32,332 bases of DNA from a virus. Shown here piece after piece: positions 1-32,147 of the stretch. Below the pieces are notes generated by a model that was given only the letters and a program-made list of their open reading frames with translations, did not search any database and was not told the DNA's origin. Position numbers and translations under genes: made by a program. The DNA is taken from IMG/VR virus record IMGVR_UViG_3300037333_000074, positions 1-32,332 of that record; one strand, given 5' to 3'. The first letter of the stretch is position 1. The number at the start of each line of letters is the position of its first letter.

Positions 1-99
1 TAAATTAAGCTAGTTTTAAATAATATTATATTTTATAATATTTTATTATTTAAAATAATTTAGAATATTTTTATATAATTTAATATAATTTTAATATAT
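1..99. repeat. Left terminal inverted repeat, candidate hairpin telomere (telL)
   Basis: Bases 1-99 are the exact reverse complement of 32049-32147 with no mismatch; identity stops at position 100. Placing 32147 next to 1 would give a 198-bp perfect palindrome centred on TTTA/TAAA, the form expected of a protelomerase target. The repeat is almost pure A/T apart from AAGCTAG near the tip and lies 68 bp upstream of the protelomerase gene, as in N15-type prophages. Seen: the repeat. Inferred: telomere function. The window begins inside or at the tip of the repeat, so the true end is not defined. Confidence 0.75.
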
Positions 100-166: not shown

Positions 167-1696
167 ATGTTTAACTTCTCTAATATGCTTAAAAAACATA
201 ATGATAGCTTGGATAAAAATCACAAAAAAGCTAGATGGAACTACAGGTTAAAAAAATATATAAAAACTCAAAAGAAAATACTTGAGTTTGAAAAAATAAA
301 AAATGACTACTGGTGTAATATCTATTCTGCAATAGATTTTATAGAGAATGAGAGTATAGATGATAGTGAGAGAGCTATGATATTAAACTTATTGTATAAG
401 GAACAAATTAAAGAGCTTACAACTCAAGTAAATAGCATTCCAGAGACTGAAAAACATAAAAAACAAATCAGTAGCGACAAAACAAACTTTAATTTATATG
501 ATGTAGATAACATAGAAGACTTAGGTCATAAAATAGTTGATGAAATTTCAGAGAATGAGAGAAGTGTAAGTGAAATTTTTAAAGATTATGTTTATTGCTT
601 CACTTATTTTTATAAATATAATTCTATCGCAACTAATATAGCAACTATAAGAAAAGTTATAAGAGATTCAGAGCTTAGTGATGAGGTAAAAGATGAAGCT
701 CTTAAAGAGTTCACTTTATCTGGTAGAATATATGACTACTTAAACGAGGGTGGGAGAAAAAAAAGAGACTCTAATATGAGTATGACTGCAAATTTAGAAA
801 ATATAGAAGTGCCTATGCTTTATGATCTAGTTACAAAAGCAAAAGAAGTTATGACTTATAAAATAACCAGACATAATAAAAAATTTATTTTTACATATCT
901 TAGTGCCTGTATAAGTTTAGCAGTAGGTAGAAGACTTACAGAGATAGTATATCAATCTGAATTTAAAAAAGTTGCAGATTATAAAATGAAAATTATAGGT
1001 TTAGGAAAAAAGAGAGATGATGAAAAAGTAGAGATAATTATTCCTACTCTATTCTTAAGTGCTAATGATGTTATTAGAGCTGTAAACATTGTAAGAAGTA
1101 TTATCCCTAAAGGTTTAAGAACTCAAGCTCAAATAGAGAAGTTTGGGCATAACCTATCTGATTTTAAATTGATAGATATATATTATGGAGCTAAAAACTA
1201 TTTAGATATAAAAGTAACTGATGAAAATAGAAAAATAGTATTTACTTATTTAAAAGATTTTTTACTTATGTTTACAGGTCGTGAAGCTCTTGAAGTTATA
1301 GCTCATAATCGTTCTGCATCTAGCTACTCTCAAGATGAAAAAATAATTATAGAAAAAATAAAGTCAATCTTTCCAAGTGATATGACAAATCCAAAAGATA
1401 GAAAAGCATACATGAGAGAACTATATGACAGCTCTCTTATAAAACAGCTTATCAAAAACAATAATGCGAAATATGACAATACTAGAGCCATGTGTGCATT
1501 AGTAGCTGAAAAGATATATAATCATAACACTCCAAATGAAGAGAGTTATAAACCTCAAGCAAGTTATATACAGAGCATACTTGGACATGGAGACAAAGAT
1601 AGAAATACTTATGAATACTACTACAAGAGACAGGTTTTACTCAAGAACTTTGATTTAAAAGCATATCTATTAACTGCAAAAACTGCAATGCTTTAA
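167..1696 (+). CDS. Protelomerase (telomere resolvase), 509 aa
   Basis: A tyrosine-recombinase-like enzyme that cuts a palindromic telomere junction and rejoins each strand as a hairpin, leaving linear plasmid DNA with closed ends. Visible catalytic landmarks are the arginine box GRRLTEIV (R255/R256), a basic hairpin GLGKKR (K281/K282) followed by a strand leading into IIPTL, the histidine motif ILGHGD (H474), and a tyrosine cluster at Y482-Y486 that should hold the nucleophile. The GRR..EI then G..K.R spacing is typical of the ResT/TelK/TelA family rather than phage integrases. Length lies between TelA/ResT (about 440-450) and TelN/TelK (about 630). The N-terminus is lysine-rich. Its place beside the terminal inverted repeat supports the call. 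An ordinary tyrosine integrase is the alternative, less likely without an attachment site. Confidence 0.85.
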   Translation: MFNFSNMLKKHNDSLDKNHKKARWNYRLKKYIKTQKKILEFEKIKNDYWCNIYSAIDFIENESIDDSERAMILNLLYKEQIKELTTQVNSIPETEKHKKQISSDKTNFNLYDVDNIEDLGHKIVDEISENERSVSEIFKDYVYCFTYFYKYNSIATNIATIRKVIRDSELSDEVKDEALKEFTLSGRIYDYLNEGGRKKRDSNMSMTANLENIEVPMLYDLVTKAKEVMTYKITRHNKKFIFTYLSACISLAVGRRLTEIVYQSEFKKVADYKMKIIGLGKKRDDEKVEIIIPTLFLSANDVIRAVNIVRSIIPKGLRTQAQIEKFGHNLSDFKLIDIYYGAKNYLDIKVTDENRKIVFTYLKDFLLMFTGREALEVIAHNRSASSYSQDEKIIIEKIKSIFPSDMTNPKDRKAYMRELYDSSLIKQLIKNNNAKYDNTRAMCALVAEKIYNHNTPNEESYKPQASYIQSILGHGDKDRNTYEYYYKRQVLLKNFDLKAYLLTAKTAML

Positions 1697-21882: not shown

Positions 21883-23316
21883 ATGCCAAATCCAAGTCTC
21901 TTAGAGCAGTTCTGTTCAGATGGGCAAAAAGATGCAGTATCTACGATACTACAAACAGCTGGGTGGTCTCCTGAAAATCCAAATATAAACGGATACCAAC
22001 TAAACACAATCTTCAATGAAATCTACACTTATCTTAACTATCTAAAAAACAAAGGTTTGAGCTTTTGGGAAGATACAAAACCATACAAAGCAACTGCTGG
22101 AGATATTGACATAGTAAGATATGCAAATAAAATCTACTTCGCAAAACTCGACTCCAACCTCGATGGACTCACTCCAAAAACTCCAGATACAAATCCAACT
22201 TATTGGGGGGTTTTGTATGACTTGGATAATCCACTTGAGTCATCTTATGCTTTGAAAAGCTATGTAGATGAACAATTTGCATTAGCTACAGATTTTATAA
22301 AGCCATCAAAACAAGTTTTATTTACGAAAACAAGTCCAGCCGACTTTACTATTCCAGTTGGGTTTAAAGTTACAGTCGGAAGTACAACGGTTGAAGTTTC
22401 AACATCTGCTTCACTAAGTTTAAATACAGACTTAGACACTGGCACTAAAACAGCTGGTACAGACTACTATGTTTATGCAAAAGTGGATAGTACATTTTAC
22501 ATTAGTGCAGATAAAACAATAACAGCTGATAGGCTTATCGGTGGTTTTCACTATGGTTTAATTCCTGAAACTGAAGCTTTAACAGGTAACAAAACTGAAG
22601 CTGATATGGTTGCAATTCGTGGTATAAATCAATATAGTTTTTGGGACTTAAAATTTAGACCAGTAGCAAATCCAGAAGGCATGGCTTTTATTAACGGTCG
22701 TTGGTATGATATTTATTTATTAAATAGTGAACATATTACAAACGGAACTTCTAAGGCTGGTGCTGTTATAGCTGGTGGTGTTGCAGATACTACTAACTAT
22801 CGTGCTATTCCTAAAATACCTTTAGAGTTTGGTGGAGATGGTGCTACAAACTATGGTAAGTTTACTTGGTTTCAAGCTTGTGAAATTGCCAAATCTCATT
22901 CAAAAGAACTTATCTCTTATTCGGAATTTCCTACTATCGCTTATGGTGTTACTGAACAAAAATCATCTCAAACAGATGGTTATGAAGTAGTAGTTGGAAA
23001 AATTGAACATTACTCAAATCTTACTTCAAAATGGGGTATAGAACAAGCGACTGGTACTCAATGGCTTTGGGGTGCTGATGTTGGTGGTAATCGTGATGAG
23101 GGTTCTACTGATTGGGCTTGGAGAACTGGATTAACTGATAATCGTGGAGATATTTATGCACTTCATAACAATCATGTTACAGCGGTGCTTCTGGGTGCGG
23201 ATCGTGGCAACGGTGTCAATGCTGGGTCTCGTGCCTCGAGTTGGCACTATTATGTTTGGAACTCGGGCTGGTACCTTGGGTCTCGTTTCGCTTGTGACCA
23301 CTTGGAACTTGTGTAG
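21883..23316 (+). CDS. Tail fibre/receptor-binding protein with C-type-lectin-like variable domain (DGR target), 477 aa
   Basis: Host-recognition fibre whose tip is diversified by the adjacent retroelement. Residues about 60-115 hold a carbohydrate-binding-like segment (FWEDTKPYKATAGDIDIVRYANKIYFAK...NPTYWG). A linker ends near residue 145. From about 263 on is a CLec/formylglycine-enzyme-like fold of the Mtd type (NPEGMAFINGRWYDIYLLN, FGGDGATNYGKFTWFQACEIA, SEFPTIAYGVTE, SKWGIEQATGTQWLWG, DEGSTDWAWRTGL). The last ~45 residues hold the variable repeat with residues D, G, S, H, Y, G, Y and L where the template would give N, D, N, N, N, N, N and I. AAAGGA lies before the ATG. Confidence 0.9.
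   Translation: MPNPSLLEQFCSDGQKDAVSTILQTAGWSPENPNINGYQLNTIFNEIYTYLNYLKNKGLSFWEDTKPYKATAGDIDIVRYANKIYFAKLDSNLDGLTPKTPDTNPTYWGVLYDLDNPLESSYALKSYVDEQFALATDFIKPSKQVLFTKTSPADFTIPVGFKVTVGSTTVEVSTSASLSLNTDLDTGTKTAGTDYYVYAKVDSTFYISADKTITADRLIGGFHYGLIPETEALTGNKTEADMVAIRGINQYSFWDLKFRPVANPEGMAFINGRWYDIYLLNSEHITNGTSKAGAVIAGGVADTTNYRAIPKIPLEFGGDGATNYGKFTWFQACEIAKSHSKELISYSEFPTIAYGVTEQKSSQTDGYEVVVGKIEHYSNLTSKWGIEQATGTQWLWGADVGGNRDEGSTDWAWRTGLTDNRGDIYALHNNHVTAVLLGADRGNGVNAGSRASSWHYYVWNSGWYLGSRFACDHLELV
23181..23297 (+). repeat. DGR variable repeat (VR), 117 bp
   Basis: Matches the template repeat 23685-23801 at 108 of 117 positions. All nine differences (VR 23200, 23207, 23240, 23245, 23248, 23266, 23267, 23272, 23275) are A in the template, here G, G, G, C, T, G, G, T, C. 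In the fibre frame they alter codons for eight residues, seven of them AAY/GAY Asn or Asp codons in the template. The last 22 bp are invariant and act as the candidate initiation-of-mutagenic-homing site. Confidence 0.95.
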
Positions 23317-23322
23317 CGAACG
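23284..23322. promoter_or_regulatory. Possible DGR stem-loop just downstream of VR
   Basis: TTCGCT (23287-23292) and AGCGAA (23315-23320) form a 6-bp stem; with one bulged T it extends to 8 bp (CG/CG). The 3' arm lies past the fibre stop codon and is absent from the TR side. Known DGRs have a short hairpin at this place that aids retrohoming, although loops there are usually smaller than these 22 nt. Confidence 0.45.
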
Positions 23323-23336
23323 GAAGTGAGTGGTAA

Positions 23337-23711
23337 ATGAAACAGACTCCTAAAAACTTGATTATCATTGAAAAATATGAAGAGTTCGTAAACTATACTT
23401 ATCCAGTATTGCAAAATATACCTCGAAAACATGGTGTAGTTAAAGAGCGAATTTTACTTATTATCTTTGAACAAGTGGAGTTGTTTTACAAGGCTTTAAA
23501 ATCTGGTCAAAAATCTAAACTTTATGAGGCTGATAGTAACCTTGCAAGTATTAGATTTTATCTAAGATTTTTGTCAGATGAAAAAAGAAAACTGATAAGT
23601 AAAAAACAAGACCGAGTCGCTGGAATAAAACTAGCAGAGGTTGGAAAGATTTTACACAGTTGGATAAAAAAGGGCAAACAAGATAGCGGTGCTTCTGGGT
23701 GCGAATCGTGA
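23337..23711 (+). CDS. avd: DGR accessory variability determinant (Avd), 124 aa
   Basis: A small basic four-helix-bundle protein that binds the reverse transcriptase and template RNA and is needed for mutagenic homing. The helix pattern fits the Avd family: KYEEFVNYTYPVLQNIPRKHGVVKERILL, ELFYKALKSGQKSKLYEADSNLASIRFYLRFL, then KKQDRVAGIKLAEVGKILHSWIKKG, with the typical Pro-Arg turn after helix 1 and the EVGK..HSWIK end. It lies between VR and TR as in BPP-1. Its last codons and stop (TGA 23709-23711) run into the template repeat, so the template RNA and avd message overlap. GGAAGTGAG precedes the ATG. Confidence 0.88.
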   Translation: MKQTPKNLIIIEKYEEFVNYTYPVLQNIPRKHGVVKERILLIIFEQVELFYKALKSGQKSKLYEADSNLASIRFYLRFLSDEKRKLISKKQDRVAGIKLAEVGKILHSWIKKGKQDSGASGCES

Positions 23712-23801
23712 CAACGGTGTCAATGCTGGGTCTCGTGCCTCGAATTGGAACAATTATGTTTGGAACTCGAACTGGAACATTGGGTCTCGTTTCGCTTGTG
23801 A
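23685..23801 (+). repeat. DGR template repeat (TR), 117 bp
   Basis: Partner of VR 23181-23297. It has 23 adenines, of which nine differ in VR; no non-adenine position differs. Read in the fibre register it encodes many AAY (Asn) codons, the usual device that lets A-mutation spread to many amino acids without stops. It overlaps the end of avd and ends 167 nt before the reverse transcriptase start. Confidence 0.95.
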
Positions 23802-23968
23802 GTATAAAGTTTAAGAATTTTGCTCTCGTAGTGAGTCAAGGCTTCTACGGAGCGACCTTAGAAATATGGTCAGCTTGTTTGTCCTACTTCGGTAAATACA
23901 TTGAGAGGTTTGTAAAAGTTAGAGTAGCTTTAATAGCGAAAAAACAAGACAACACACAAAGGTTAATA
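23802..23968 (+). ncRNA. Spacer of the DGR template RNA between TR and the reverse transcriptase gene
   Basis: A 167-nt stretch without a likely gene (an open frame runs through it but has no start signal). It is less AT-rich than its surroundings and has foldable segments (GGCTTCTACGGAGCGACC). In BPP-1, RNA just downstream of TR is needed to prime cDNA synthesis. The equivalent role here is inferred from position only. Confidence 0.5.
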
Positions 23969-24985
23969 ATGGGAAAAAGATATAAAAATCTTTTTGAAAA
24001 AATAGTTGATATTGACAACATAAGACTAGCATATAAAAAAGCCTTAAAAGGTGGAAATAGATATACAGCTGGACACTTAAAGTTCAAAGAGAATTTAGAA
24101 GCAAATCTTTTTCTTTTACAGGAACAATTAAAAAATGAAACTTATGAACACGGTCGTTATCATACTTTTAAAGTTTATGAACCTAAAGAGAGATTAATAG
24201 CTTCACTTCCTTTTAGAGATAGAGTAATTCAACATTCTATAAATAACATAGTAGAACCTATATTTGAAAATATGTTTTATAAAACTTCTTATGCTTGTAG
24301 AACAAATAAAGGCACTCATAAAGGTGTTAAAGATGTTCAATCAAAGATAAGAAAACTTTCTAAAACTGGAACTGTCTATTATTTAAAAATGGACTTTTCA
24401 AAATACTTTCATTCAATAGATTTAAAAATATTATTTATTGAAATTGAAAAGAAAATAAGTGATAAAAAAGTTCTTACTTTACTTAAAAAGTTTGCAAGTG
24501 ATAACAAAGTAGGTATTCCTATTGGTAACTTACTAAGTCAATTATTTGCAAATATATACGGTCATATTTTTGATAGGTTTATCAAAACTAAAATCAAAGC
24601 TAGATACTACTTTAGATATATGGACGATACAGTTATTTTATGTAATGACAATTTACATTTAAGAAGAACTCAAAAACTGTTAAAAATATTTAGCAGATTT
24701 TATATGAAGTTAAAGTTTAGTCATTGGCACATTAGTTCAATAGTTAAGCCTTTAAACTTTTTAGGTTATAGAATTACAGAGAGCTACAAGCTCATAAGAA
24801 AAGATAGTGTTGTTCGTGCAAAGCGAAAAATAAAGAGATATAAAAAACAAAATGATGTAACTAAGTTAAAGCTATTTTTAGCCTCGTGGGGTGGTCACTT
24901 AAAAAGTGCCGATAGCTGGAACTTAGTTAAATTCATAAATCAAGAGGAGCAGTTATGCAAGATGAAATTAGTGTTAAGCCGTTAG
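23969..24985 (+). CDS. DGR reverse transcriptase, 338 aa
   Basis: Copies template RNA into adenine-mutagenised cDNA that replaces the variable repeat. Motifs in order: RLIASLPFRDRVIQHSI (finger region), YYLKMDFSKYF with catalytic D142, IGNLLSQLFANIYG (185-198), which has the SQ-containing form typical of DGR enzymes in place of the retroviral/group II pattern, and catalytic YMDD (Y217-D220). A thumb-like basic C-terminus follows (LNFLGYRI...RAKRKIKRYKK). I chose the ATG at 23969 (AAAGG 6 nt upstream); the frame is open further back into TR but lacks a start signal. It overlaps the next gene by 31 nt. Confidence 0.93.
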   Translation: MGKRYKNLFEKIVDIDNIRLAYKKALKGGNRYTAGHLKFKENLEANLFLLQEQLKNETYEHGRYHTFKVYEPKERLIASLPFRDRVIQHSINNIVEPIFENMFYKTSYACRTNKGTHKGVKDVQSKIRKLSKTGTVYYLKMDFSKYFHSIDLKILFIEIEKKISDKKVLTLLKKFASDNKVGIPIGNLLSQLFANIYGHIFDRFIKTKIKARYYFRYMDDTVILCNDNLHLRRTQKLLKIFSRFYMKLKFSHWHISSIVKPLNFLGYRITESYKLIRKDSVVRAKRKIKRYKKQNDVTKLKLFLASWGGHLKSADSWNLVKFINQEEQLCKMKLVLSR

Positions 24986-31211: not shown

Positions 31212-31823
31212 TTACTCTCCTATTTCATTTTTAATGTAAGTTATATATCTATCCCATTGCTCAAGGATAGACTCTGTTTTTTGATTTTTCTTTTTACCAT
31301 AAGCACTTCTAAGTATCGCCATGCTGTTTAAATACTCTTCAATGCCTAAACCTTTGTTTAGTGAGTTATTGAATAGCTCTGTCTTTTTTAACTCAAAAAA
31401 GGCTTTTATCTTGAAATCTTTAAAAACCTTTTTGATGTTTTCAAAATCAGCTTTATTCGTTGTCATAGTTGCTACTATGATTATATTTTTGTTAAGTTGG
31501 CTCAATTCATCAACTGCATTAACACTTCTCTTGAGAGAGCTTATATTATTGACTACAGGTACAACTACCAAATCACATCTCTCTATAATAGATGTAGTTC
31601 CAGCTTCAATAAATCCACCAAAGTCTATAACTGTATTTGGAAGAGAGTCGAAGTCCAGCTCACTTATCTCTTTCAAGGACATTACTTTAGTGTTCTTGTG
31701 GACAACCTCAACCACATCATCATCATTAGTGAGTATGATTGAGTCCGTAGCCTTAGCTGTATTAATAGCTATAGGAGTCTTACCAAGCCCACCTTTACGG
31801 TTAATAACTGCTATTACTGACAT
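31212..31823 (-). CDS. parA: ParA-type partition ATPase (ParF-like), 203 aa
   Basis: Segregates plasmid copies to daughter cells. The deviant Walker A motif KGGLGKT begins at residue 10 (VINRKGGLGKTPIAINTAK), followed by an Asp/Gly motif (NTVIDFGGF) and a VVVPV strand, the signature order of small type Ib ParA proteins. There is no N-terminal helix-turn-helix. It forms an operon with the RHH gene and overlaps the 64-aa gene upstream by 10 nt. Its presence near the right telomere supports plasmid rather than integrated maintenance. Confidence 0.88.
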   Translation of the reverse strand: MSVIAVINRKGGLGKTPIAINTAKATDSIILTNDDDVVEVVHKNTKVMSLKEISELDFDSLPNTVIDFGGFIEAGTTSIIERCDLVVVPVVNNISSLKRSVNAVDELSQLNKNIIIVATMTTNKADFENIKKVFKDFKIKAFFELKKTELFNNSLNKGLGIEEYLNSMAILRSAYGKKKNQKTESILEQWDRYITYIKNEIGE

Positions 31824-32048: not shown

Positions 32049-32147
32049 ATATATTAAAATTATATTAAATTATATAAAAATATTCTAAATTATTTTAAAT
32101 AATAAAATATTATAAAATATAATATTATTTAAAACTAGCTTAATTTA
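32049..32147. repeat. Right terminal inverted repeat, candidate hairpin telomere (telR)
   Basis: Perfect inverted copy of 1-99. Base 32147 corresponds to base 1. Immediately past it the sequence has no partner in this window, so this copy is 185 nt away from the window end. Confidence 0.75.

Follow-up and report, generated by a model that had tools for sequence, protein, structure and literature searches.

A complete BPP-1-type diversity-generating retroelement with a predicted variant G·A hairpin at its target site in an apparent telomere phage

A tail-fibre gene that ends in a repeat, and that is followed by a second copy of this repeat and a reverse transcriptase (RT) gene, raises the question of whether the locus is a complete diversity-generating retroelement (DGR) and how its target is marked. 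To address it, we analyzed a virus record of 32,332 bp, hereafter the window, that contains genes for portal, capsid, tail sheath, tape measure, repressor, and endolysin. The cassette is encoded on the plus strand in the order target-variable repeat (VR), hairpin, avd, template repeat (TR), RF03022 RNA, and RT. The target gene (positions 21883 to 23316) encodes a tail-fibre receptor-binding protein of 477 aa that is homologous to Mtd, with matches to PF21916 (Mtd domain 2; about 4e-15) in Pfam and to phrog_11262 (8e-78) in PHROG. Residues 134 to 476 form the Mtd-like part, which matched the solved structure of Mtd-U1 (PDB 1yu4) with an E value of 2.3e-47; this homology supports the CLec-like domain with VR at its C terminus that had been predicted in a preliminary description of the locus. 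The alignment of relatives revealed module swapping, in that the N-terminal part (21883 to 22280) was wholly different in most of them and the Mtd-like C-terminal part was conserved. The AlphaFold prediction for the fibre, with a pLDDT of 44.6, was too poor to be used.

The two DGR proteins, avd and RT in canonical order, had likewise been proposed, and both assignments agree with the Pfam and PHROG matches. The avd gene (accessory variability determinant; 23337 to 23711), the 3' end of which overlaps TR, matched PF22296 (7.3e-35) and solved Avd structures (PDB 4dwl/8ub7; 8e-28). The RT (23969 to 24985; 338 aa) matched RVT_1, phrog_1423 (1e-106), and the structure of Brt (PDB 8ub7_A; 1.4e-87), and its alignment with DGR enzymes showed the motifs IGNLLSQ and YMDD; the closest phage record is Bordetella phage BPP-1, with 47% identity. 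The start codon assigned mechanically (GTG at 23699) was rejected in favor of ATG at 23969, which fits the alignment with Brt. All cassette genes are open, with intact catalytic motifs. Between TR and RT, at 23823 to 23953, we found the DGR RNA spacer element Phage_DGR (Rfam RF03022), which matched over its full length (1 to 127) with 93.4 bits against a gathering score of 50 and occurs at the same location in BPP-1 and five relatives. Despite this strong match, single-sequence folding of the spacer was no better than that of shuffled sequences (z, -0.17).

A repeat search over 20 to 27 kb returned a sole long repeat pair, namely, VR at 23181 to 23297 and TR at 23685 to 23801, of 117 nt each, 92% identical, and 504 bp apart. 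They differ at 9 of 117 positions (20, 27, 60, 65, 68, 86, 87, 92, and 95 of the repeat), all of which are adenines in TR. Given 23 adenines among the 117 TR positions, the chance that all nine differences fall on A is 1e-7. Repeat search and base comparison reproduced exactly the coordinates, the length, and the nine adenine differences reported initially. The likeness of the repeats ends abruptly past TGTGA, where VR continues with CCACTTGG and TR with GTATAAAG; the 3' end of VR (23276 to 23297) is invariant and resembles an IMH. The variable codons correspond to residues 440 to 465 of the fibre. TR contains 12 variable codons, mostly AAY, from none of which a stop codon can arise, and the theoretical repertoire amounts to 2.5e12 protein variants.

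Relatives were retrieved by an RT search of viral and genome contigs, and their TR/VR pairs were located by a repeat scan, resulting in 27 loci. Adenines make up 22.5% of TR and account for 278 of the 295 TR/VR differences (94%), an excess with a pooled p of about 1e-155 if substitutions are assumed to spread evenly over sites. The other 17 differences are few and scattered, several of them close to the ends of VR, a pattern expected from ordinary drift. Three cassettes, those of the window, L003, and L117, are near-identical (RT identity of 95 to 96%). Their TRs differ from each other at none of the 23 adenine sites and at 1 to 4 other sites, whereas their VRs differ at 9 to 14 of the 23 adenine sites and at 1 to 4 of the 94 others (Fisher p from 1e-5 to 2e-11). 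Since the VRs differ at adenine sites and the TRs at none, the VRs were rewritten after these cassettes had separated. Two expectations of the preliminary description, namely, that VR is not invariant among related phages and that TR/VR differences in relatives stay at adenines, were thus borne out, the latter with the 17 scattered exceptions. Its claim of adenine-specific mutagenic homing stands for past homing; the word "direct" was slightly strong for evidence drawn from sequence. Second, remote VRs were observed in additional Mtd-like genes (L006:4569-4681 and L016:16668-16775), where TR adenines underlie 10 of 11 and 7 of 7 differences, respectively. Another locus contains a near-perfect 122-bp repeat (L007:7613-7840; spacing, 105) within a long fibre gene.

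In our judgment, it is nearly certain that the window carries a complete BPP-1-type DGR in a contractile-tailed temperate phage and that this DGR diversifies the tail-fibre tip. Two similar repeats 504 bp apart could also be the copies of an ordinary duplication, driven apart by point mutation or gene conversion with no involvement of reverse transcription, but the differences are one-sided and located at TR adenines in the window and 26 other loci, RT, Avd, and RF03022 are all present beside the repeats, and the pooled excess at adenines already contradicts such an origin, leaving it a negligible probability. A complete DGR that is now inactive, its VR diversified in an ancestor and frozen since, would agree with the single VR that one genome yields. 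We consider this highly improbable, given the open genes and intact catalytic motifs and the VRs that differ at 9 to 14 of 23 adenine sites next to TRs that differ at 1 to 4 positions, none of them A. By every defining feature testable here, the window contains a BPP-1-type DGR; taken alone, the cassette is a textbook DGR of a known kind. What goes beyond it are the apparent telomere-phage setting, described below, and a variant cis element.

This element is a hairpin at 23316 to 23331 (plus strand; GCGAAC-GGAA-GTGAGT) with a tandem A·G/G·A core. Its GGAA loop starts 24 nt past the end of VR, and the element is located 5 nt upstream of avd. In the window and its relatives, a stem of six positions surrounds a loop of the GRAA type; the outermost pair in the window is a G·T wobble. 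Counted from the loop, stem positions 3 and 4 consist of A·G and G·A at 27 sites and in 16 of 16 distinct aligned elements. The remaining four positions form pairs in all 16, with two-sided covariation at four pairs. We observed 24 two-sided changes against a shuffled mean of 6.4, and 0 of 500 shuffles reached this value, a count that is not a probability because the sequences are related; the signal disappeared when the alignment was slid. The canonical form was also found in L117, L119, and L120. Exceptions are L118, in which an A·A mismatch is beside the G·A core, and the remote VR of L006, which has a degenerate form; in L016, the G·A hairpin accompanies the remote VR although avd does not follow. 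At L005:9981-11020, the G·A hairpin is directly followed by an RT with an Avd-start-like N terminus (MQQTAKNLIIIEK), and the repeat scan found no TR/VR pair at this locus, which reads like either a deletion of avd and TR or a collapse from VR to TR in the assembly.

Since the 27 G·A sites had been picked by hairpin score from a set that came from RT, we rescanned the viral contigs with a pattern for the VR 3' end that does not include the hairpin. Among the resulting 27 targets, 12 had the G·A form, 11 had a stem fully paired in Watson-Crick fashion and an identically placed loop, 2 were irregular, and 2 had no scorable hairpin. The type of VR protein differs between the G·A and Watson-Crick forms, and on the RT tree the hairpin form changes three times, compared to 13.8 times for shuffled labels. 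The RT clade of the window (22 rows; 99/98 support) has the G·A form except for L032. In 3.15 Mb of fetched loci, some of which overlap so that some sites were counted twice, we recorded 55 occurrences of the G·A motif. In 47 cases it lies at most 45 nt after the VR-end codon motif, and 7 of the remaining 8 were judged by eye to be behind a VR-like end as well.

Efficient homing in BPP-1 depends on the hairpin that follows VR (PMC3240598). Hairpins of phage DGRs have been described to have GC-rich stems of 7 to 10 bp and 5'-GRNA loops, a common but not defining feature (PMC3240598). The window hairpin does not possess such a GC-rich Watson-Crick stem. The computed stability of the G·A hairpin is 0 to -1.3 kcal/mol, compared to -11.4 kcal/mol for that of BPP-1 (ViennaRNA, DNA parameters), so that its folding is not supported by the DNA nearest-neighbour model. 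Tandems of 5'-GA-3' form sheared pairs in DNA. Furthermore, DNA mini-hairpins with a GNA/GNNA loop and at least two G-C pairs were reported to be extraordinarily stable (PMC4686876). In light of both precedents, it is plausible that the G·A hairpin folds as DNA.

Its position 5 nt upstream of avd, its purine-rich GGAAGTGAG, and its low computed DNA stability could indicate that the 16-nt element is a protein-binding site or a translation leader of avd instead of a retrohoming hairpin. We consider this unlikely, since the element has covarying pairs, shares loop position and GRNA loop type with the Watson-Crick hairpins of sister DGRs, and also occurs after the remote VR of L016, which has no avd behind it. 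Still less probable is that the real hairpin of the window is the longer CCACTT...AAGTGAGTGG fold proposed by the energy model (MFE, -5.9 kcal/mol; z, -2.5). This fold is possible in the closest relatives only, and its 3' arm is missing from L006, L016, L118, and others, which nevertheless keep the G·A element. The tandem G·A hairpin would take the role that a Watson-Crick hairpin has in BPP-1. We give about even chances to the broader reading that, two RT lineages of DGRs have as their retrohoming address a DNA hairpin that is not of the Watson-Crick type and in which the tandem G·A core is obligatory, and that recognition follows a lineage-specific structural code matched to RT/Avd rather than requiring any stable GC stem. 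This lineage maintains a G·A structure instead of stable GC pairs, which suggests recognition of shape and not of stability. The literature search returned no description of G·A hairpins in DGRs, which is weak evidence because subscription journals were mostly outside its reach. With the conserved hairpin, it becomes possible to test for what reason DGRs require such an element downstream of VR and what recognizes it; as a second target address, the hairpin might allow two DGRs to work independently in one cell.

By analogy with BPP-1, an RNA that runs from the end of avd through TR and the RF03022 spacer would be reverse transcribed by the RT-Avd complex, which would misread template adenines. 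VR would be marked as the recipient by its GC-rich 3' end and the adjoining hairpin, and homing would alter as many as 12 codons in the tip that binds the receptor, generating the above repertoire free of stop codons. Variation of the fibre would be expected to shift host tropism.

The preliminary description had passed over the RF03022 RNA, the hairpin, and the setting of the cassette, as the window looks like the genome of a telomere (linear-plasmid) phage. It encodes a predicted telomere resolvase with a ResT/TelK catalytic domain (167 to 1696, plus strand; 509 aa; PF16684, 1.8e-12) and a ParA-like partition ATPase (31212 to 31823, minus strand; phrog_164, 1e-10). An exact 99-bp terminal inverted repeat has its left copy at 1 to 99 (plus strand), with an imperfect palindrome at 14 to 55, and its right copy at 32049 to 32147 (minus strand), beyond which 185 bp extend. 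This layout resembles the linear prophage form of N15. Contig G001 (L112 and L113), which appears to be a telomere phage as well, carries a DGR as in the window (RT identity of 95%) and, in the same place, a resolvase that is 50 to 60% identical and related to that of the window at 8e-14; PF16684 is above the cut-off in both. Its terminal inverted repeat differs in sequence and is also exactly 99 bp long. These exact lengths on both contigs may represent an assembler k-mer overlap, which makes the true length of the inverted repeat uncertain. The window resolvase had no relative in phages, plasmids, genome_contigs, or 397 Campylobacterota genomes and only one in viral_contigs; about 95 of its residues (near 338 to 433) are absent from this sole relative (L112:150-1385). 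Its AlphaFold model (pLDDT, 43.9) was too poor to be used.

The host is probably a Campylobacterote, as the nearest cassettes lie in metagenome-assembled genomes (MAGs) of Campylobacterota, but cassettes move. A search with the portal protein gave only matches of 23 to 27%, and no other gene settles the host. The cassette would place a mutator of host range in what appears to be a telomere phage, and its relatives sit in sulphur-oxidising Campylobacterota. The literature search, which was thin on subscription journals and hence is weak evidence, returned only incidental co-mention of DGRs and protelomerases.

Comparison with known systems places the window as follows. (i) The cassettes in Campylobacterota MAGs, namely, L117 (Helicobacteraceae), L118 (Sulfurimonas), L119 (Arcobacteraceae), and L120 (Sulfuricurvum), share its TR/VR design and have RTs that are 59 to 96% identical. 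They differ in the A·A mismatch of L118 and in that the telomere resolvase was not found in the 397 genomes of this phylum. (ii) Vibrio phage VP58.5, a telomere phage (Vhmlvirus), also has a DGR with Avd and RT, here with a SUMF1-type target, and a ResT/TelK telomere resolvase near ParA, so that the combination of DGR and telomere resolvase is not new. Its RT is 41% identical, its gene order is different, and its hairpin is of the Watson-Crick type (GGCGCAC-GGTA-GTGCGCC). (iii) BPP-1 shares with the window the annotated order mtd-VR, avd, TR, and brt, the spacing, the Mtd-type target, Avd, the RF03022 RNA between TR and RT, adenine-biased differences, the RT homology given above, and a hairpin with a GRAA-type loop after VR. 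The window fibre has an extra N-terminal region, and the phage types differ. The BPP-1 stem (GCGGGGCC/GGCCCCGC) is Watson-Crick paired and, like that of VP58.5, fits the description of a GC-rich stem of 7 to 10 bp with a GRNA loop, whereas the window has a six-position stem with tandem A·G/G·A.
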